Positions 6,353 through 23,863 of a stretch of 32,965 nucleotides of DNA are shown piece after piece. The stretch lies in the IMG/VR virus record IMGVR_UViG_3300034106_000075, positions 1-32,965 of that record; one strand, given 5' to 3'. Below the pieces are notes generated by a model, which had not been told where the DNA came from, made no database searches, and saw nothing but the letters and a program-made list of their open reading frames with translations. The position numbers were made by a program, and so were the translations under genes. This stretch comes from a virus. The first letter of the stretch is position 1; every line of letters begins with the position of its first letter.

Positions 6353-8245
6353 ATGGCAACACTTGCAGAGTTCCGCGCACAGTATCCGCAATACGATGCC
6401 GTGCCAGATGTCAAGCTGGCCGACTCGTTGCATAAAAAGTTTTATAGCCAGATTCCCAAGATGGAGTTTTACAAAACCATTGGGTTGGGTTCGGCTGCGG
6501 CAATACCTGGCGCTGAGAATGTTGTGACTGGTGTTAAGCCACCAGAAGTGTCTATGCGTGACCGCATTATGGGCGTGATTGAAACCCCATTGGCGCTTGG
6601 CGCTACATTGGCCGGCGGTGCAATTGCACCTATTGTCGGTATTGCTGGCACTTTGGCCAGTGGCAAATACGGCACACAAGAAGGCATTCGCGCTGGCCAA
6701 GAAGCCATGAAAGCTGTGCAATATCAGCCACGCACACAAACGGCCAGAGAAGCCTTGGGCGCTGTTGGTGAGTTTTTACAACCAGTTACAAGTGCTTTGC
6801 CCCCAACCCTCGGCTCTGTTGGTACAAGCATTAACGCTTTGGCGCCCGCCGCCATGATGCAGGCTGGTGCTGTTACCCGTCCTATTGCAAGACAAGTAAC
6901 AACGCCAGTGCAAAATGCTTTGGCCAATGTAATGACACGCGAACAACAGCCAGCTATGGTTGGTATGGGCGCGGCCAGTACTGCTGAAGACTTGATGCGC
7001 CAAGAGCGTTTGCAACGCTTGAACATCCCAGCCACAGCTGGTGAACGCACCAAGAACTTAGCACAACAACAGTTTGAATCTGAAGTTCAGCGTGGTGTGG
7101 TAACTGGCATTTCTGAAGAAGCTAAAACTAAATTGGCTGAACAAATGTCTGGTTTTAAAGCAAACCAACAAAAAGCCATTGTGCAAAACTTTGAGCGCAT
7201 GACCAATGAAGTTGGCGCTGAAGTGGCAGACCCAACTCAAATGCGTGCTGTTGGCAAGATCGTTGACAAAGCGCTCAATGATGAGTACACCAAAAAGTAT
7301 GACGCATACAAAGCGTTGTATGCACAAGCAGACAATGCTGGCGAAACTTTGCAACAAGTTCCATACAAAAATTTGCTTGACTTTATTGAAACCAAAACGC
7401 CAACACAGCGCCAAAAATTAGACCCAATTTTGGATTCTGTGGCTGAGTCATTGAGAATGAATGACCCGCAAGGCACTGGCACAATTTCTGTCCGTGCGCT
7501 TGAAGACATCTATCAACAGATTGGCACGGTCAAGGACTCGGCAAATGCCAAGCCTATGAAAAACATCATTACCCAGATGGGTGAAGGCGCTGGCGGTGAG
7601 TTGTACCAAAAAGCACGCGCTGCCAGAGCGCAGTTGGCCAAAGAATTTGAAGATGTATCGCGTGTGGATAAGTTGCTTGGCACAAAGGCCGGCTACGCTG
7701 ACCGCCGTATTGCGCTTGATGATGTCTTTAAGCATGTGGTGCTTGACGGTTCTTTGGAAGAAATGCGCACAGTCACCAAGTTGCTCAAGAAGGCTGGCCC
7801 AGAAGGCCAACAAGCCTACAAAGAACTGCAAGGCCAAACCATACAGCAAATGAAAGATTTGCTGACTAAAAGTGATCAGCCATCTTTTAGAAACCTTAAC
7901 ACTTTTATCAATCAACTTGATGCCGAAGACAAACTGACATACATGTTTGGCAAAACAGGCCGCAATGAGATTATGGATTTGCGTGATGCCATCAAAGATG
8001 TGCTTGTCAAACAGCCTGGTGCGGTGAACTACAGCAACACTTCTGGCGCTGTCTTGCGTGGTCTTGAGGCTTTGCAAACTTTGAGATTCCCAGGCGCAAA
8101 GCCAGCTGCTGAATTTGCCCGTACTCGTGAAGTGACTGGCAAAGTCAAAGAAGCTCTTAAACAACCAAACCAGTTGGCGCCTGCACAACGCAACAAAAAC
8201 GCACTGCGCATTGACTTGACTGGCATGGCCAATGGAAAAGAATGA
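6353..8245 (+). CDS. P22 gp16-like ejection protein
   Basis: This 630-residue protein begins with MATLAEFRAQYPQYDAVPD and ...LADSLHKKFYS, an N-terminal motif common to the largest ejection protein of P22-like phages. Residues ~85-115 form a long small-residue hydrophobic stretch (ALGATLAGGAIAPIVGIAG) that could insert into the inner membrane. The remainder is mainly helical and charged (QQFESEVQRGVV, KKYDAYKALY and similar), consistent with a peripheral inner-membrane protein that delivers DNA to the cytoplasm. It is the third gene of the ejection block. Two bases separate it from the gp20-like gene, and its end overlaps the next start (ATGA). Confidence 0.8.
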   Translation: MATLAEFRAQYPQYDAVPDVKLADSLHKKFYSQIPKMEFYKTIGLGSAAAIPGAENVVTGVKPPEVSMRDRIMGVIETPLALGATLAGGAIAPIVGIAGTLASGKYGTQEGIRAGQEAMKAVQYQPRTQTAREALGAVGEFLQPVTSALPPTLGSVGTSINALAPAAMMQAGAVTRPIARQVTTPVQNALANVMTREQQPAMVGMGAASTAEDLMRQERLQRLNIPATAGERTKNLAQQQFESEVQRGVVTGISEEAKTKLAEQMSGFKANQQKAIVQNFERMTNEVGAEVADPTQMRAVGKIVDKALNDEYTKKYDAYKALYAQADNAGETLQQVPYKNLLDFIETKTPTQRQKLDPILDSVAESLRMNDPQGTGTISVRALEDIYQQIGTVKDSANAKPMKNIITQMGEGAGGELYQKARAARAQLAKEFEDVSRVDKLLGTKAGYADRRIALDDVFKHVVLDGSLEEMRTVTKLLKKAGPEGQQAYKELQGQTIQQMKDLLTKSDQPSFRNLNTFINQLDAEDKLTYMFGKTGRNEIMDLRDAIKDVLVKQPGAVNYSNTSGAVLRGLEALQTLRFPGAKPAAEFARTREVTGKVKEALKQPNQLAPAQRNKNALRIDLTGMANGKE

Positions 8246-10543: not shown

Positions 10544-10694
10544 TCACAGCGCGGTAAGCCTCAATGGCCGTCTTCAAGTCGCACTGTAAGTGCTGAATGC
10601 GGTCATCTTGCTCACACAACTTGGCGTAGGCTTCTTCGGCAAACTTGGCTAAGTTAGCCTGGCTCCATGTAGAAAAGTCTGGTTTGTTACTCAC
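10527..10694 (-). CDS. 55-residue conserved small phage protein, GTG start
   Basis: The protein is small, acidic and helical (SNKPDFSTWSQANLAKFAEE, then ...QHLQCDLKTAIEAY). A GTG at 10694 is chosen over an upstream ATG at 10721 because AAGGAG lies just ahead of it with a six- to seven-base spacer, and because the GTG overlaps the stop of the upstream gene (GTGA). This junction matches the ATGA style elsewhere in the operon. It is the last gene of the leftward early operon and its 3' end overlaps the convergent endolysin by 17 bases. Function unknown. Confidence 0.7.
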   Translation of the reverse strand: MSNKPDFSTWSQANLAKFAEEAYAKLCEQDDRIQHLQCDLKTAIEAYRAVTKQTP

Positions 10695-11320
10695 GCTCTC
10701 TCCTTGATGTCGTAAAACCAATCGTCACCGGCAGACCACTTGCGCGTGCCGTCTACTGTCCACAGGCGCTGCGCCGCTTGGAAGTCAGGGAATTTTGTCT
10801 CACTTGGTATCAGGCTTTGGTCATACCACAGGCAACGGTTGTTGGGCTGGCAAGCAAACTGGCCATTGTCCAGCGCAATCCAATTAAATGACTTGTGTTC
10901 TTCGGCCTGCTCGGTAAAGCCCGTGTCCAAATCCATGCCCTCGGCGCAGAAGTCCACCGTGAACAAGTAGCGGCCAAAGTGCCACTCTTTGTCTTTGCCA
11001 AGGAACTTGACGCCAAGGTTGCGTAGGCCGATCTTTTCAATGATCGTAAAACGGTAGCCCATGCAGTCCCACAGCTGTAGCGTGTCAATCGGCAGATTGC
11101 TAGCGTCTTTGTGCCAGACGTAGGCGTGGATCGGCAGCTTGTCGTACAGAGCGCCGTAGTTGGGCAACAGCGACTCGATGCGAAACACTTGGCCACGCAG
11201 GGCTTTGAGGCTGACCCAGATGGCAGGCTCCAGTTCGCCATGGCCTTTGTGATCGTTGTACAAGAACTCGCGCTTAACAAAGCACTTCATGGGCGGCAGT
11301 GATGCCACGATATAACTCAT
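10691..11320 (-). CDS. Conserved phage protein of early operon, function unknown
   Basis: This 209-residue protein is aromatic-rich and mainly beta, with many W/Y/F-containing strands: SLKALRGQVFRIESLLPNYG, LPIHAYVWHK, DTLQLWDCMGYRF, WHFGRYLFTVDF, HKSFNWIALDNGQFACQPNN and a C-terminal KWSAGDDWFYD. The GALYDKLPIHAYVW and LDNGQFA..PNNR blocks recur in many marine and freshwater phages, where the protein is unassigned. I see no catalytic motif. Its stop overlaps the next start, and its own start overlaps the 49-residue gene upstream (ATGA). It probably acts in early host takeover or DNA metabolism by context. Confidence 0.75.
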   Translation of the reverse strand: MSYIVASLPPMKCFVKREFLYNDHKGHGELEPAIWVSLKALRGQVFRIESLLPNYGALYDKLPIHAYVWHKDASNLPIDTLQLWDCMGYRFTIIEKIGLRNLGVKFLGKDKEWHFGRYLFTVDFCAEGMDLDTGFTEQAEEHKSFNWIALDNGQFACQPNNRCLWYDQSLIPSETKFPDFQAAQRLWTVDGTRKWSAGDDWFYDIKERA

Positions 11321-11466
11321 GTGTTCTTCTCCTTTGCTATTGCAATCGCCATTTCAATTGCCATTCGTTTTGTCAACGCCATTTCTTCAATGGTTTTAAT
11401 TTCATCATCCGTCAGTCCAACCCAAGGGCGAACGTAGTCTTGTATGTCATCATCATCTTTAGTCAT
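11317..11466 (-). CDS. 49-residue small acidic protein of early operon
   Basis: ATG at 11466 encodes MTKDDDDIQDYVRPWVGLTD followed by DEIKTIEEMALTKRMAIEMA and a lysine-rich end. The WxGLTDDEI pattern is frequently seen in tiny phage early proteins. The start overlaps the preceding stop by 8 bases and the stop overlaps the following ATG (ATGA), so it fits the operon exactly. It is predicted to be wholly helical. Function unknown. Confidence 0.65.
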   Translation of the reverse strand: MTKDDDDIQDYVRPWVGLTDDEIKTIEEMALTKRMAIEMAIAIAKEKNT

Positions 11467-11650
11467 TAATTTCTTTCTTTGAAGGTGCGTCTAGTTCGAG
11501 TCGGTAATACTTAGCAGGCATCTTGGCGTTTTTGTCTAGCTGTTTACGCAGCCAGTCAATACCGCCAAGTTCTTGGAAGATCATCATGTGACGATCTGTG
11601 AGCCTGATCTGGCGGCCTTTAAGGGGTTCGGGTGGTTTTGGGCGTGGCAT
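11459..11650 (-). CDS. 63-residue basic conserved phage protein
   Basis: The start chosen is ATG 11650, giving MPRPKPPEPLKGRQIRLTDR followed by HMMIFQELGGIDWLRKQLDK. A longer reading from 11791 would run through the glutaredoxin gene in another frame and is not credible. The IRLTDRH..IFQELGG..WLR pattern resembles short DNA-binding or regulator-like proteins seen widely in phages, including a proline/basic N-terminus and a helix pair. It overlaps the glutaredoxin gene by 32 bases at its start and the 49-residue gene by 8 bases at its end. A nucleic-acid-binding role is an inference from charge and helix layout. Confidence 0.65.
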   Translation of the reverse strand: MPRPKPPEPLKGRQIRLTDRHMMIFQELGGIDWLRKQLDKNAKMPAKYYRLELDAPSKKEIND

Positions 11651-11873
11651 GTTTTGTCTTTGTAAGTGCTTCATGTAAGCCGGCCAAGCCACCAACGTGC
11701 TGGCCATCAATAAAGATTTGCGGCATCTGGCGTGAGCTTTCTGGCAGATCACTAAGCAATGCAGGGTTTGACTCGATGTCAATCTCAACATATCTAATGT
11801 TCTCAGCCCTCAAAATCATCTTGGCTGTAATGCAATTAGGGCATTTGCGTTTGGTGTAAATTAGGATTTCCAT
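11619..11873 (-). CDS. Glutaredoxin
   Basis: This is an 84-residue thioredoxin-fold protein, typical for phage glutaredoxins. The redox site is Cys11-Pro-Asn-Cys14 in YTKRKCPNC, the cis-proline is Pro51 in MPQIFIDG, and the GG pair at 61-62 follows. It would reduce disulfides with glutathione, and in phages commonly serves ribonucleotide reductase or host redox balance. No ribonucleotide reductase is encoded here, so it presumably works with the host enzyme. ATG 11873 is preferred over a reading from 11921 because it places the first beta strand at the N-terminus and overlaps the upstream stop (TAATG). The CPNC rather than CPYC site is mildly unusual. Confidence 0.9.
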   Translation of the reverse strand: MEILIYTKRKCPNCITAKMILRAENIRYVEIDIESNPALLSDLPESSRQMPQIFIDGQHVGGLAGLHEALTKTKHATPKTTRTP

Positions 11874-12094
11874 TATGTTTTCATTTCTCTGATAGTTTGG
11901 GCAAACACCGGCAAATCCCATTGATCAGCCAGCTTGGCGCATTCGTCTAACACTTGGTTGCGCTGCGATGGCGACACATACACATCCCAATGGTATGGTT
12001 GCCCCTCAATGTCACGCAGTATTTGCTTACCAAGGTTGCTTTGCTTTTCAACGTCGTTAAAGGCTTCGTCTTCCTCTTTTGTCCATTCAGTCAT
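11873..12094 (-). CDS. 73-residue conserved small protein of early operon
   Basis: The protein is acidic and helical (TEWTKEEDEAFNDVEKQSNL, DECAKLADQWDLPVFAQTI). A ribosome-binding site GGAGAC is immediately upstream with a short spacer. The site is formed at the stop codon of the upstream cysteine-rich gene, so the two are linked. Its stop overlaps the glutaredoxin ATG by one base. The WDVYVSPSQR block in the middle looks like a beta strand pair. No motif indicates function. Confidence 0.65.
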   Translation of the reverse strand: MTEWTKEEDEAFNDVEKQSNLGKQILRDIEGQPYHWDVYVSPSQRNQVLDECAKLADQWDLPVFAQTIREMKT

Positions 12095-18289: not shown

Positions 18290-18508
18290 ATGAACACACA
18301 AATACCCCCAGATGAGCGCCGACAACTGGCAGAAAAAGTTGGCATAAACGAGCAATATCTTTACCAGTGCCTTACTGGCCGGCGTGAGATGTCAGCATGG
18401 GAGGCCGTCAGAGTGGAGCAGCAAAGCGAAGGCAGGCTCACTCGAAAGATGGTGTGCCAGGGCAGCTGGCAGTCTATTTGGCCAGAGCTGGTGGAGGCAA
18501 AAGCATGA
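18290..18508 (+). CDS. Cro/YdaS-like helix-turn-helix regulator
   Basis: This is a 72-residue DNA-binding protein. DERRQLAEKVGINEQYLYQC followed by LTGRREMSAWEAVRVEQ forms the helix-turn-helix typical of the YdaS/Cro group. The C-terminal TRKMVCQGSWQSIWPEL is also characteristic. The ATG at 18290 is used; a TTG nine bases upstream would only add MRP. It is the first rightward gene and shares a 180-base divergent region with the leftward operon, where repeated GCTAGA half-sites overlap both candidate promoters. It is therefore the probable switch protein controlling early versus replication transcription. Its stop overlaps the primase-helicase start (ATGA). No partner CI repressor is present. 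Confidence 0.85.
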   Translation: MNTQIPPDERRQLAEKVGINEQYLYQCLTGRREMSAWEAVRVEQQSEGRLTRKMVCQGSWQSIWPELVEAKA

Positions 18509-20565
18509 GCAATTTAACTTCTATTTTTCCCAACGGCTTTGCGGCTGCCACAGAGAGCCAAGACCTGATTAACCCAGAGGAAGGGTTTCGCCGTCATTGC
18601 GAGGCAGCTGGCCTACTGATCAAAGACCAGATCATTGCTGACGGTGAGATTCACCGTGTGGCGCATGTGTCGAGCAAGAAGGGTGCGCTTGATGGTTGGT
18701 ACATCTTGCACACTAGTGGCAAAGTGCCAGTGGGCATTGCAGGGTGCTGGAAAGAGCCAGTGTTTGAAGCCAAGTGGGTGGCAGATACTGGCCGTGCAAT
18801 GTCGTTCACTGAGCGCTTTGAGCATGACAAGTGGGTGGCAGAGGTTAAAGCCAAGAAAGATGCAGACAGACTGGCTTCGCAGGCGGTGGCTGCCGAGCGT
18901 GCAGAGGATGAGGTGGGAACGTATGCGGATGCAAGCAATGACCATCCATACCTTGTGCGCAAGCATGTTGGCGCTAACGGTATCAAGATTGACCGTGCAG
19001 GCAGGCTGGTTGTGCCAGTGATCAATCAGGCTGGCGAGATACTGAGCTACCAAACCATTGATGCAGATGGCAATAAGCGATTTCTCAAAGGCGGCAAGAT
19101 CGAGGGCGGGTTCTATGAGTTGCGTGGTAACCGCAAGATCGTGTTCATTGGTGAAGGGTTTGCCACATGCGCATCGATCCATGAGGCGACTGGCTACACC
19201 GTGTTGGTGGCATTCGACTGCGGCAATCTGGCCAAGGTGGCCAAGAGCGCCAAGGAGATGTTCCCAGGCTCCAAGATCGTGATCGGTGCAGACAATGACC
19301 AGTTCACCGAGGGCAACCCTGGCGTCACTAAGGGCCGTGCAGCTGCGGCGCTTGTGTTTGGTGAGATTGTGTACCCATCGTTTTCTGATTCGGACATGGT
19401 GGACAACAAACCTACAGACTTCAATGACCTTCACTGCTTGCAAGGCTTGGATGCCGTCAAAGAGCAGATCGAGCGCGTGGCAGGGCCAATGAAAGACAAA
19501 CTGGCGTTTGAGTTCAGTCGGGCAGATAGCCTGCAACTGACCCAAATCAAATGGATCGTTGACGACTACATCGAGGCAGATTCCCTTGCGCAAGTGTTCG
19601 GTGATCCAGGCGGCGGTAAGTCTTTCGTCAGCATCGACATTGCCTGCTGTGTGGCCACAGGCCGTGCCTGGCATGGCCATGAGGTTAAGCAAGGTAGCGT
19701 GTTCTACATTGCCGGCGAAGGCCACAATGGTTTGGCCAGACGGTTTAAGGCATGGCAGATTGGCAACGGCACGAGCTTGGACGGTGCGCCACTGTACAAG
19801 AGCCACCGTGCGGCGCAGTTGTATGACGCGACTGAGGCTGCGGTGGTGGCTGAGTCAATTAAGGAATTGTCTGCGCAGGCGGGAACTGTGCCTAGCCTGA
19901 TCATCATTGACACCCTAGCGCGTAACCATGGGGGGGATGAGAACAGCACCCAAGACATGAATGCGTTCATTCAGCACTTGGATACCTACTTGCGCCAACC
20001 ATGGAACTGCTGCGTTCTGGTGGTGCATCACTCTGGCGTGGCTGATAAGGATAGGTCTAGGGGTAGCACAGCACTGAAGGGCGCACTGGATGCGGAATAC
20101 CGATGCCAGCTGGATTCAGGAACCAAGACCATAGCGTTTGAGTCCAAGAAGATGAAGGACGCAGAGATGCCTGCGCCTAAGAACTTTCAGATCACGCAAG
20201 TGGACTTGCCAATCCAAGACAAGCACGGTTTGGCGGTCAAGGGTGCGTACCTGACGGCGGTGGACATTAGCGGCCTGATGGGCAACATCCAAAAGCGGGT
20301 GATCCTGTCAGGCAACCAGCGCATTGCGCTGAACTGTCTGGTGGCCATTGAGGTTAAGAGAGCAGCAGACGGCATTGAGGGTTTTGCGGCCATGGTGGAC
20401 TATGACGAGTGGCGTGATTCGGCCAAAGAGCATGGTTTGAATGCTCGCCGGTTCAAAGAATCCATGGAGGCATTGGTTAAGAAAAACATGGTTTTGGAGA
20501 ATGCGGAGATGTACCGAACTGTACCGAAATGTACCGAAATCGGTACAGAACGTACAGAGGGTTGA
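18505..20565 (+). CDS. Bifunctional primase-helicase (Toprim + RecA-like ATPase)
   Basis: The protein has 686 residues from ATG 18505 (ATGA overlap). The Toprim domain spans about residues 205-300: GEGFAT with the catalytic Glu near 217, and GADND at 261-265. A RecA-type helicase/RepA-like ATPase follows: Walker A GDPGGGKS at 366-373, AGEGH, Walker B LIIIDTLAR near 465-472, and HHSG near 507. Residues 1-130 look like a primase-associated DNA-binding domain without a clear zinc finger. It would prime and unwind at the phage origin. The last ~18 residues (starting YRTVPKCTE) are encoded by the GTACCGAA iterons, much as lambda iterons lie within the initiator gene O. Confidence 0.9.
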   Translation: MSNLTSIFPNGFAAATESQDLINPEEGFRRHCEAAGLLIKDQIIADGEIHRVAHVSSKKGALDGWYILHTSGKVPVGIAGCWKEPVFEAKWVADTGRAMSFTERFEHDKWVAEVKAKKDADRLASQAVAAERAEDEVGTYADASNDHPYLVRKHVGANGIKIDRAGRLVVPVINQAGEILSYQTIDADGNKRFLKGGKIEGGFYELRGNRKIVFIGEGFATCASIHEATGYTVLVAFDCGNLAKVAKSAKEMFPGSKIVIGADNDQFTEGNPGVTKGRAAAALVFGEIVYPSFSDSDMVDNKPTDFNDLHCLQGLDAVKEQIERVAGPMKDKLAFEFSRADSLQLTQIKWIVDDYIEADSLAQVFGDPGGGKSFVSIDIACCVATGRAWHGHEVKQGSVFYIAGEGHNGLARRFKAWQIGNGTSLDGAPLYKSHRAAQLYDATEAAVVAESIKELSAQAGTVPSLIIIDTLARNHGGDENSTQDMNAFIQHLDTYLRQPWNCCVLVVHHSGVADKDRSRGSTALKGALDAEYRCQLDSGTKTIAFESKKMKDAEMPAPKNFQITQVDLPIQDKHGLAVKGAYLTAVDISGLMGNIQKRVILSGNQRIALNCLVAIEVKRAADGIEGFAAMVDYDEWRDSAKEHGLNARRFKESMEALVKKNMVLENAEMYRTVPKCTEIGTERTEG

Positions 20566-20736: not shown

Positions 20737-21042
20737 ATGAGATCAAAAAAGGTAAAAATGTGGTGCGGAAATCCACCAGATGATCAAATGTGGAGCAAGG
20801 TTTGTGATCTTGGAAAGTTTGATGGGATCGGTTGGATGATGTATTCCAAAGTGCCTGATGCTGACAGTCCGTGGCAAAGTTTAAAGTTGGTGGCGGATGG
20901 GGTAGTGCCAGGCAAGGCGAACTACAGACTTGCATGGAACGGGGAAAGGTTTGCCCTGCATCCAGACTTTGTGTCGCTTCAAGAGTTTAGGCCGGCATTG
21001 GCCAGAGCAGTTAACAGAGCGCTTGATAAGGCCGTTGCATGA
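20737..21042 (+). CDS. 101-residue protein following the iteron array, function unknown
   Basis: ATG 20737 is preceded by AAGGAG at a seven-base spacing, which decides it over a GTG at 20716. The product begins MRSKKVKMWCGNPPDDQMWS and has FDGIGWMMYSKVPDADSPWQ, a strand-rich middle with YRLAWNGERFALHPDF, and a C-terminal helix (EFRPALARAVNRALDKAVA). It is basic at both ends. It is the first gene after the candidate origin and is coupled to the RusA-like gene (ATGA). A replication accessory role fits the position, with no motif evidence. Confidence 0.65.
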   Translation: MRSKKVKMWCGNPPDDQMWSKVCDLGKFDGIGWMMYSKVPDADSPWQSLKLVADGVVPGKANYRLAWNGERFALHPDFVSLQEFRPALARAVNRALDKAVA

Positions 21043-21386
21043 TCGAAGTCGAGATGGACATGAAGATCGTGTCCGTGGCCAACATGCGGTTGCATTGGGC
21101 GGCCAAGGCCAGACTGGTGAAGTCGCAAAGGCAGAAGACCAGAATGGCACTGGCAGCTGTTGCACAGTCCTATGGCGTTGAGATACTGCCAGTCACCGTG
21201 GTGTTGACTAGGGTGGCTCCAAGGAAGCTGGACGGCGACAACTTGCAGTCGGGGTTCAAAGCGGTCAGGGATGGTGTGGCTGACTGGCTTGGCGTGGATG
21301 ACGGGAGCAGCATGATCGAGTGGCAATATTGTCAGCGCTCTGGTGGCCCGAAAGTTTACAGGGTTGAGATCGAGGTGATAACATGA
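21039..21386 (+). CDS. RusA-like Holliday junction resolvase
   Basis: This 115-residue protein is the size of RusA. The signature RKLDGDNLQSGFKAVRDGVA supplies Asp65, Asp67 and Lys74, with Asp87 or Asp88 in LGVDDGS giving the third acid, the expected DxDN...K...D layout. It would cut branched recombination or replication intermediates before packaging. It follows the replication genes and precedes terminase, a usual place for phage resolvases. The beginning (IEVEMDMKIVSVANMRLHWA) is the first strand and substrate-binding helix of the fold. Confidence 0.82.
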   Translation: MIEVEMDMKIVSVANMRLHWAAKARLVKSQRQKTRMALAAVAQSYGVEILPVTVVLTRVAPRKLDGDNLQSGFKAVRDGVADWLGVDDGSSMIEWQYCQRSGGPKVYRVEIEVIT

Positions 21387-21457
21387 CGGTGTGCGCAGTT
21401 GCCATTGCCGCACCTTCGGGGAAAGCGCCAGTTGGTGTGAGTACCTTCTTTTTTTAA
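21383..21457 (+). CDS. Possible 24-residue leader peptide before TerS
   Basis: ATG 21383 overlaps the resolvase stop (ATGA) and opens a 24-codon reading (MTVCAVAIAAPSGKAPVGVS, then TFFF) whose TAA is followed by the AAGGAG of the small terminase gene. Its junctions look designed, but its composition is ordinary and the length is tiny. It may only couple ribosomes across the gap. Low confidence as a functional peptide. Confidence 0.25.
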   Translation: MTVCAVAIAAPSGKAPVGVSTFFF

Positions 21458-21468
21458 GGAGTTTACAA

Positions 21469-21981
21469 GTGACTGATAACTTGGCGTCAGAAATGACAGT
21501 GCAAAGAGAAGGCCCAGGCCGTCCAGCTTTGTTTCCGGCAGAACATGAGGCTTGGCAAAATATCCTGCGTGGCATCTCAGAAGGCAAAAGTCTGACTAGC
21601 ACCCTTAGAACCGAGGGAATGCCCAGTTACTCGCTGGCGCGTCAAATGATCAAGAACAACCCAGAGTTCAGGGCGGCTTACGAAAAGGCCGTAGAAGACC
21701 GCGCAGACCGTTTGGCAGAGGAAATCATTGAGTTGTCAGACAAAGAGCTTCCAGACGGTTTAGAAGGCTCTATGGCTAGTGCTTGGGTTCAACAGAAACG
21801 TCTGCAAGTTGAAGCACGCAAATGGGTTGCTGCAAAACTTAAACCGAAAACCTACGGTGACCGCATTGATGTTGCCGTGACCGATCACAGGATTAGCGTC
21901 ATGGATGCGCTGACACAAGCCAAACAGCGCGTGTTGATGGATAACAGTAACGTGGTAGATGTGGAAGCAAAGCAGGCGTAA
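21469..21981 (+). CDS. Terminase small subunit (TerS)
   Basis: The protein has 170 residues from GTG 21469, chosen because AAGGAG lies at 21456-21461 with a seven-base spacer and because upstream residues look unlike protein. The N-terminal helix-turn-helix includes NILRGISEGKSLTSTLRTEG and MPSYSLARQMIKNNPEFRAAYEKA, followed by a long helical oligomerisation domain (DRADRLAEEIIELSDKEL) and the RKWVAAKLKPKTYGDRI motif common to Sf6/P22-like small terminases. It recognises the packaging site and regulates TerL. The pac site in this group often lies in or near the gene itself. Confidence 0.87.
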   Translation: MTDNLASEMTVQREGPGRPALFPAEHEAWQNILRGISEGKSLTSTLRTEGMPSYSLARQMIKNNPEFRAAYEKAVEDRADRLAEEIIELSDKELPDGLEGSMASAWVQQKRLQVEARKWVAAKLKPKTYGDRIDVAVTDHRISVMDALTQAKQRVLMDNSNVVDVEAKQA

Positions 21982-22122
21982 TCGGGAAGGTTATGCGCTT
22001 TTTGCATAAAAATTGTACGGTTACGCGCACGCGCGCGTGTTGCGCAGATGCAACAAAAAGAAAGCCAAACAACAAGAAAAGCATCGTTCACTTTATACAA
22101 TGACCATTATGTTAAGTTGACC

Positions 22123-22216
22123 CTGAGTTATCCACAGAAAAAATAATACTCAGGCATTACAGTCTGAGTTATCCACAGGCAATTGTGGACAACTGTGGAA
22201 AAGTACCTGTGGACAA
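22123..22216. other. DnaA-box cluster, oriC-like
   Basis: Perfect boxes TTATCCACA lie at 22128-22136 and 22169-22177, each inside the repeated 15-mer CTGAGTTATCCACAG. On the other strand are TTGTCCACA (22192-22184), TTTTCCACA (22202-22194) and TTGTCCACA (22216-22208). The TTATCCACA sequence is the high-affinity E. coli R1/R4 type. The TTGTCCACA boxes differ from the TTWTNCACA consensus at one position. ACTCAG at 22148-22153 can pair with either CTGAGT flank. The cluster plus the downstream AT tract suggests DnaA-dependent opening or a DnaA-titrating site. Confidence 0.7.
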
Positions 22217-22223
22217 GCGCCCA

Positions 22224-22253
22224 GCCGGCCATGGGGAGGGGGGTAGGGCCGGC
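22224..22253. repeat. GC-rich inverted repeat with G-run loop
   Basis: GCCGGCC (22224-22230) and GGCCGGC (22247-22253) are perfect reverse complements around a 16-base G-rich centre (ATGGGGAGGGGGGTAG). It could form a cruciform or RNA hairpin, and the G-runs might form a quadruplex on the + strand. It separates the DnaA boxes from the AT-only tract. Confidence 0.45.
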
Positions 22254-22287
22254 GCAAAAGGGCCGCAGTAACGGTAGCCCCGCGAAC

Positions 22288-22319
22288 ATTTTTTAAAATA
22301 TTTTTAATTTTTATTTTTT
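22288..22319. other. AT-only tract, candidate unwinding element
   Basis: These are 32 consecutive A/T bases (beginning ATTTTTTAAAATATTTTTAA) directly after a GC-rich stretch and 17 bases before the TerL ATG. No canonical Shine-Dalgarno sequence is visible before that ATG. The position relative to the DnaA boxes resembles a DNA unwinding element. Confidence 0.55.
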
Positions 22320-22336: not shown

Positions 22337-23863
22337 ATGCAAACCACGATCTACAAGCCCGAAGACGAACAAGAGTTGATGGCCACTCTGTGGACGCCGG
22401 CCATTGCCGATGACCCAGAGGCGTTTGTGCTGTTTGCCTTCCCTTGGGGTCAGGAAAATACACCCCTTCAAAACTTCAAAGGCCCCCGCAAGTGGCAGCG
22501 CGAAGTTTTGCGTGAGATCACTCAGCACATTAAAAACAACCAGGGCAAAGTAGACTTCAACACCCTGCGCAGTGCGGTGTCTTCTGGCCGTGGTATTGGC
22601 AAATCAGCCTTAGTCAGCTGGCTCACCATCTGGATGTTGTCTACCCGCATTGGCTCGACAACGATCATTTCGGCCAACTCAGAAGCGCAGCTCAGAGCAG
22701 TCACATGGGCCGAGATCACAAAGTGGTTGGCTATGAGTATTAACAGCCACTGGTTTGAGGTTGCGGCCACCAAGATCACGCCGGCAGCGTGGTTGACTGA
22801 ACTGGTTGAGAAAGACCTGAAAAAAGGCACAAGGTATTGGGCTGTTGAGGGCCGCCTGTGGTCAGCAGAGAACCCAGATGCTTACGCTGGTGTCCACAAC
22901 TTTGATGGTGTGATGGTGATTTTTGACGAGGCATCAGGTATTGATGACTCGATTTGGGCTGTGACGGCTGGTTTTTTTACCGAGAACACACCGAACCGCC
23001 TTTGGCTGGCTTTTTCCAATCCACGCCGAAACACTGGTTATTTTTATGAGTGCTTTAACTCCAAGCGCGATTTCTGGAGTAACAAGGTGGTGGACGCCAG
23101 AACGGTAGAAGGCACTGACAAGGCGGTATATCAGAACATCATTGACGAATACGGCCCAGACAGCTCACAAGCACACGTTGAGGTCTATGGCATGTTCCCA
23201 TCTGAGGGTGATGACCAGTTTATTCCGGCTGACATTGTGGATGAGGCCATGGCACGGCCCAAATACAAAGACCAAAGCGCCCCAATCATCATTGGAGTTG
23301 ACCCAGCGCGCTTTGGCGCTGATGCTACGGTGATTGCGGTGCGCCAAGGCCGAGACATTGTGAGGATTGACCGCCACAGGGGTGATGACACCATGACTGT
23401 GGTTGGCCACATCATTGAGGCCATTGAGGAATTCAGCCCAGCCCTGGTGGTCATTGACGAAGGTGGGCTTGGCGCTGGCATTGTTGACCGTTTGAAGGAG
23501 CAGAGGTACAAAATCAAAGGTGTCAACTTTGGCAATAAATCGGCAAATCCGATCATGTATGGCAATAAAAGGGCCGAAATGTGGGGAAAAATGAAAGAAT
23601 GGCTGCGCAGTGCATCAATTCCTAAAGATAGGTTCTTGAAAACTGATTTGGTTTCGCCTATGATCAAGCCAGATTCGAGGGGCACTATATTTTTGGAGTC
23701 AAAGAAGGACATGAAGGCCAGAGGTCTGGCTAGTCCTGACGCAGCTGATGCAATATGCGTGACGTTTGCGTTTCCTGTGGCTCATAGGGAATATACTGCG
23801 AAGGAAAGAACCCGCGCATATTCTGACCGCACGGCTGTAGCAACTTCTTGGATGGGATCATAA
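22337..23863 (+). CDS. Terminase large subunit (TerL)
   Basis: The protein has 508 residues. The packaging ATPase has Walker A SGRGIGKS at 83-90 and Walker B VMVIFDEAS with Asp197/Glu198, followed by the coupling-type region FSNPRRNTGYF. The RNase-H-like nuclease follows with Asp322 in GVDPARFG, Asp374 in VVIDEGG and Asp468/Asp471 in SPDAADAI, the expected metal-binding set. The length is normal for headful-packaging podoviruses. It pumps DNA through the portal and cuts the concatemer. The start lacks an obvious ribosome-binding site and comes directly after the AT-only tract. The gene ends two bases before the next ATG. Confidence 0.95.
   Translation: MQTTIYKPEDEQELMATLWTPAIADDPEAFVLFAFPWGQENTPLQNFKGPRKWQREVLREITQHIKNNQGKVDFNTLRSAVSSGRGIGKSALVSWLTIWMLSTRIGSTTIISANSEAQLRAVTWAEITKWLAMSINSHWFEVAATKITPAAWLTELVEKDLKKGTRYWAVEGRLWSAENPDAYAGVHNFDGVMVIFDEASGIDDSIWAVTAGFFTENTPNRLWLAFSNPRRNTGYFYECFNSKRDFWSNKVVDARTVEGTDKAVYQNIIDEYGPDSSQAHVEVYGMFPSEGDDQFIPADIVDEAMARPKYKDQSAPIIIGVDPARFGADATVIAVRQGRDIVRIDRHRGDDTMTVVGHIIEAIEEFSPALVVIDEGGLGAGIVDRLKEQRYKIKGVNFGNKSANPIMYGNKRAEMWGKMKEWLRSASIPKDRFLKTDLVSPMIKPDSRGTIFLESKKDMKARGLASPDAADAICVTFAFPVAHREYTAKERTRAYSDRTAVATSWMGS

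Follow-up and report, generated by a model that had tools for sequence, protein, structure and literature searches.

Why should the gap between the two terminase genes of a tailed phage resemble a bacterial origin of replication? The locus that raises this question lies in a 32,965-base IMG/VR contig from freshwater, referred to in its entirety as the window, that derives from a podovirus-like phage. Its virion and packaging genes include a P22-like portal, an Sf6-like terminase small subunit (TerS), the terminase large subunit (TerL), scaffold and coat, and its replication and recombination genes comprise a primase-helicase and a Sak4/SSB/exonuclease set. The primase-helicase (Toprim + AAA_25; 18397..20565, + strand), which co-occurs with the cassette described below, lies ahead of a conserved 115-aa protein (21039..21386, +), of TerS (21391..21981, +; PF20901 with E=1e-29, phrog_1482) and of TerL (22337..23863, +; phrog_2). 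The 115-aa protein is putatively a RusA-like Holliday-junction resolvase, as judged from an invariant LDGDNL...DD motif only; a Pfam search gave no match, there is no PDB relative and the structure model is of low confidence, too poor for a fold search. Repeats of 127 and 55 bp at the ends of circular assemblies fit circular or circularly permuted genomes. Elsewhere in the window (10691-11921, - strand) a glutaredoxin gene (PF00462) is found close to a ferredoxin-family host-takeover gene (phrog_3704).

Anatomy of the terminase gap

The original prediction placed in this gap two perfect DnaA boxes within a 15-base direct repeat, three inverted boxes and a 32-base AT-only tract, and all of these elements are indeed present between TerS and TerL. 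Boxes 1 (22128..22136) and 2 (22169..22177) are perfect copies of TTATCCACA on the + strand, each inside an exact 15-bp direct repeat, CTGAGTTATCCACAG, and boxes 3 (TTGTCCACA, 22184..22192), 4 (TTTTCCACA, 22194..22202) and 5 (TTGTCCACA, 22208..22216) follow on the - strand. Five boxes in 89 bp exceed chance expectation: in 300 first-order shuffles of the window the maximum number of boxes per 120 bp was one in 274 cases and two in 26, as compared with five in the window itself. The strong predicted fold of the region 22123-22220 (z -4) arises because the boxes are inverted. One extra perfect TTATCCACA occurs at 7663-7671 (-), in a tail-region gene and outside any cluster. DnaA-box arrays seem, by their sequences, to be common among phages; dense TTATCCACA arrays with up to 22 copies in 550 bp, and no Xer site, are found in L355, L366, L384, L401, L408 and L415.

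The interval originally singled out, 22123-22319, does enclose the boxes and the AT tract but leaves out the most conserved part of the locus, a 28-bp putative XerC/XerD (dif/psi-type) site, ACTTTATACAA-TGACCA-TTATGTTAAGT (22090..22117, +), that begins 108 bp after the TerS stop codon and ends ten bases before box 1. It consists of an XerC arm ACTTTATACAA (22090-22100), a center TGACCA (22101-22106) and an XerD arm TTATGTTAAGT (22107-22117), and so has the pattern of 11-bp arm, 6-8 bp center and 11-bp arm seen in dif, cer and psi. Compared with the dif sequences of E. coli (XerD arm TTATGTTAAAT) and B. subtilis as printed in PMC3025954, the XerD arm is identical at 10/11 and 9/11 positions, respectively; the XerC arm matches B. 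subtilis at 8/11 positions and E. coli at 4/11, the latter match being poor in the outer half. The exact XerD arm also occurs in cellular sites, with at least 118 matches to TTCGNATAA-N6-TTATGTTAAGT in species genomes, for example of Gemmatimonadota and Acinetobacter. Judged by its sequence, 22090-22117 is a candidate XerC/XerD recombination site.

On the other side of the boxes, and separated from them in the window by a largely GC-rich stretch of about 70 bp, is the 32-bp AT-only tract (22288..22319, no strand assigned), a candidate unwinding element. AT-only runs in 100 shuffles did not exceed 21 bases. By base-stacking sums, no other 40-bp segment of the contig is as unstable as this tract in the window and in G001-G004 and G012, where the cassette is ∼200 bp away. 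The earlier account of the gap, correct as to boxes and AT tract, did not mention a conserved G-run, GGGGAGGGGGGTAGGGCCGGCGCAAAAGGG (22233..22262, +), which contains a G-quadruplex motif and has a variable offset from the XerD arm. Neither G-run nor AT tract keeps a fixed distance to the boxes, and both are replaced in distant lineages. The G-run is strongly conserved upstream of TerL or TerS in clades with and without DnaA boxes alike, and may serve packaging, replication or transcription. A transcription terminator or structured RNA was considered and rejected, the G-run/AT stretch folding no better than shuffled sequence, and a promoter scan of the region gave a weak result.

Conservation and rigid spacing

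The original prediction called for a comparison of the boxes in relatives with conserved flanking genes, loss of the boxes from such relatives being the refuting outcome, and the boxes withstood this check. In order to have an unbiased set, loci were fetched only by TerL similarity, and 29 of these had a readable TerS. Wherever TerS is ≥62% identical, which is the case in 26 loci, the Xer-type site is kept together with two or more boxes, 104-181 bp past the terS stop or, in two of the loci (L008 and L014), as the inverted block; neither site nor boxes are found in the three loci where TerS is ≤40% identical. Column entropies over 17 non-redundant members are lowest in the XerD arm (0.09 bits), followed by box 1 (0.42) and box 2 (0.58), with values of 1.29 and 1.46 bits in the upstream flank and between the boxes. 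Among 37 representatives the main variation in box 2, which is not fixed by the search pattern, is at the fifth base (C/G/T/A). This position of the DnaA consensus is degenerate and tolerated by E. coli DnaA.

The coupling of Xer site to boxes holds in searches that start from either element. When viral contigs were searched with the Xer pattern alone, ACTTNNNACAA-N6-TTATGTTAAGT, the matches listed included 41 distinct new hits long enough for analysis. On the XerD side, the adjoining 130 nt contain one or more DnaA boxes in 41/41 of these hits and two or more in 36/41; on the XerC side, any box is present in only 9/38. Such collections of related contigs share ancestry, so that the counts are not independent events. 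As controls, and again among the matches listed, cellular sites that share this XerD arm have no box in 98/116 cases and two in 2/116, and other viral Xer sites have two or more boxes in 1/112, with no box on the XerD side in 105/112 sites of proteobacterial type and 13/15 of actinobacterial type. In the reverse direction, 22 of 80 listed contigs that had been fetched only by the spaced box pair carry a general dif match ≤400 bp away, and no dif match occurs elsewhere in the 687 kb of these contigs. The offsets of boxes 1 to 5 from the XerD arm are rigid, at +21, +62, +77, +87 and +101, across as many as about 140 distinct members; box 4 is present in only part of the relatives, and in a few members the layout is reduced or differs. 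The 10-bp spacer between Xer site and box 1 is fixed in length and is found with 37 different sequences.

The usual order is primase-helicase, RusA-like gene, TerS, Xer site and boxes, G-run, AT tract and TerL; in many relatives other genes, occupying 1.3-2 kb, separate TerL from the cassette. Proteins of 474-516 aa with no PHROG match lie in this interval in L321 (4358-5782, -) and L324 (5354-6904, -). Xer site and boxes are inverted together, as one block, in L126, L139, L157, L168, L196, L008 and L014, with the AT tract and flanking genes keeping their direction, which argues against a role as promoter or terminator for TerL. The original suggestion of a DnaA-regulated switch for the packaging genes is disfavored by these inversions and by the distance from TerL. 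More generally, a DnaA-regulated promoter or packaging (pac) control region acting on either terminase gene appears unlikely: such a role would suit the location between the two genes, the P22-type portal, which suggests headful packaging, and the other tandem iterons upstream of TerS in sister clades, but the cassette is inverted in several relatives, stands apart from TerL in many and is missing altogether from a genome (G007) with a 96% identical portal and an 84% identical TerL.

Association with replication genes

The cassette is also found beside TerS in phages where TerL is only about 30% identical, and its presence follows the replication genes. DNA polymerase A is encoded in G005, G007, G008, G013 and G015, five genomes in which the cassette was not found. 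No box cluster is present in G005, G007 and G013, the polymerase A genomes checked over their whole length; the exact XerD arm is absent from G005 and G007, and G013 keeps an XerD-type half-site. DNA polymerase A is absent, and the cassette present, in the primase-helicase genomes G000-G004, G009, G011, G012, G016, G021 and G022, the last of these with a TerL that is only 31% identical. Polymerase families B and III-alpha were sought in most primase-helicase genomes and not found, the PF03175 search having been run without a positive control. There is one exception, G006, with primase-helicase, G-run and AT tract but neither box cluster nor Xer site. In G007 a portal 96% and a TerL 84% identical to those of the window are combined with a different replication set and no cassette, so that the cassette tracks replication genes and not virion genes. 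Two named phages with their own polymerases, MW202483 and OR003940, are also without it.

A phage-encoded DnaA-like protein was looked for and rejected, as 16 related contigs contain no PF08299; MW202483 does have a small protein annotated as a DnaA helix-turn-helix, yet lacks the cassette. In the contigs searched there are no phage-plasmid genes of the ParA (PF13614), Rep_3 (PF01051) or DnaA-C (PF08299) families. Relatives of the polymerase A genomes have other tandem iterons before TerS (ATGACCCAA, ATGACYCACA and others). Iterons of 9-10 bp (ATGACCCAA, ATGACYCACA, ATTGCCTACA and TTGTCCACA) are repeated in tandem upstream of TerS in the sister clades L036, L039, L050, L056, L068 and L076, which have the same G-run, and in L038, L047, L054, L061, L062 and L069 the XerD arm TTATGTTAAGT is kept upstream of TerS, the XerC arm is degenerate and TGACYCACA iterons replace the DnaA boxes. 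By these sequence comparisons the iteron sequence turns over very fast.

A probable host-dependent origin and its alternatives

On balance we think that the cassette is probably a host-DnaA-dependent origin with a built-in Xer site for multimer resolution or circularization. We infer a series of events in which host DnaA would bind all five boxes, two of them direct and three inverted, and open the AT tract, as easily melted DNA, so that replication of the phage circle would start; the phage primase-helicase would then enter and host polymerase would copy the circle, taking over because the phage has no recognized polymerase or initiator. Multimers would arise by theta replication and through the recombination genes of the phage, and host XerCD, acting at the adjoining site, would resolve them into single circles; alternatively, XerCD would circularize the terminally redundant DNA once it has entered the cell. 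Packaging by headful phages often begins near the position just past terS. A site located there would fall in the terminal redundancy, as does loxP near pac in P1.

An origin-like reading of the layout that had been predicted finds support in the constant box geometry, the instability of the AT tract and the co-variation with replication genes, but not in GC skew: cumulative skew has no minimum at the cassette in G001-G004, and in the circular G003 a maximum, which is terminus-like, lies near it. With oriC the cassette shares consensus DnaA boxes in both orientations, clustered beyond chance, and an adjacent AT-rich stretch that is the least stable by stacking sums; it differs in being viral, in the GC-rich gap of about 70 bp, the missing skew minimum, the attached Xer site and the lack of a dnaA gene. 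The further proposal that this would be a second origin is without support, no other origin being known here.

The strongest rival, which we regard as possible but doubtful, is that the element is a DnaA-controlled Xer site and not an origin, the array serving as an accessory nucleoprotein structure that would set the timing of XerCD recombination or select the copies involved. DnaA would in that case be an architectural or timing factor, and a DnaA-XerCD complex might, again tentatively, couple the state of the origin to multimer resolution or circularization. Such a role would account for the spacing between Xer site and box 1 being fixed at 10 bp while the spacer sequence is not, and for the joint inversion of Xer site and boxes in seven loci where G-run and AT tract, with their variable offsets, stay in place; cer and psi likewise require accessory proteins beside the core site (PMC5357621). 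Against it, the presence of the cassette tracks replication genes, an extremely unstable AT tract stays nearby in the main lineage, and an accessory role of DnaA in Xer recombination was not found in the literature searched. The clustered, high-affinity consensus boxes are also what would be expected of a datA-like sponge, as originally suggested, in which the many copies of the phage genome would soak up host DnaA on their boxes and so block initiation in the host; the rigid linkage to an Xer site, the fixed strand pattern and the co-variation with polymerase-less genomes are not predicted by such a sponge, which we hold to be very unlikely.

Least likely of all is an attachment site for integration at host dif in an IMEX-like prophage. 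Two Xer arms with six central bases and the lack of any encoded tyrosine integrase would fit, and filamentous and tailless phages do use host dif (PMC11630473). However, a search of 84,980 species genomes of bacteria and archaea found no copy of the module, which together with the missing integrase led us to reject a prophage state; no module-bearing contig found is above about 38 kb, so that no host flanks were seen, and integration at host dif as in IMEX phages was observed neither as an integrated copy nor as a host-flanked contig. The IMEX phages (CTXphi, VGJphi, TLCphi and tailless vibriophages) resemble the present case in their phage-borne dif-like sequence, use of host XerCD and lack of their own integrase, but are filamentous or tailless and integrate at host dif, whereas here both arms are present and no integrated copy was found. 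Naming of the host from the dif arm was attempted and is not decisive, TTCGNATAA-N6-TTATGTTAAGT occurring in Gemmatimonadota, Acinetobacter and others.

The proposed origin with a resolution site has partial counterparts among small replicons. Like cer (ColE1), psi (pSC101) and Acinetobacter pdif, the cassette is carried by a small circular replicon and combines an XerC/XerD site of 11-6-11 layout with adjoining protein-binding DNA, and cellular and pdif-type sites share its XerD arm. In cer and psi it is PepA/ArgR or PepA/ArcA that occupy the DNA beside the core site, unlike the DnaA boxes on the XerD side here, and the carrier here is a tailed phage. Dif-like sites are known in filamentous and tailless phages and in plasmids (PMC5357621, PMC11630473). 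In the open-access literature searched, the closest case is a single Pseudomonas phage with an Ori-Finder prediction; a tailed-phage cassette with an Xer site at fixed spacing to DnaA boxes was not found there, and earlier reports may exist. DnaA boxes are known at some plasmid and phage origins, and P1 has loxP near pac and an oriR with DnaA boxes. The likeness to P1 thus extends to a circularization or resolution site near the packaging start and to host DnaA boxes at the origin, with the differences that a site for a host recombinase replaces Cre/lox, no Rep protein was found and both elements are in one 130-bp block.

If the favored reading of a host-DnaA-dependent origin with an Xer site is correct, widespread uncultured freshwater phages would borrow both the start of replication and genome monomerization from the host cell-cycle machinery, with the two functions in one 130-bp element that is small enough for plasmid testing. 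The cassette would provide a signature for finding such phages, and the dif arm a possible means of host pairing. In an unrelated phage (L378, 3731-3852, and L499) an actinobacterial-type dif (AACGCCGATAATGTACGTTATGTCAAGT) lies beside seven DnaA boxes and a G-run near a terminase gene, in what looks, from the sequence, like the same arrangement arrived at independently.
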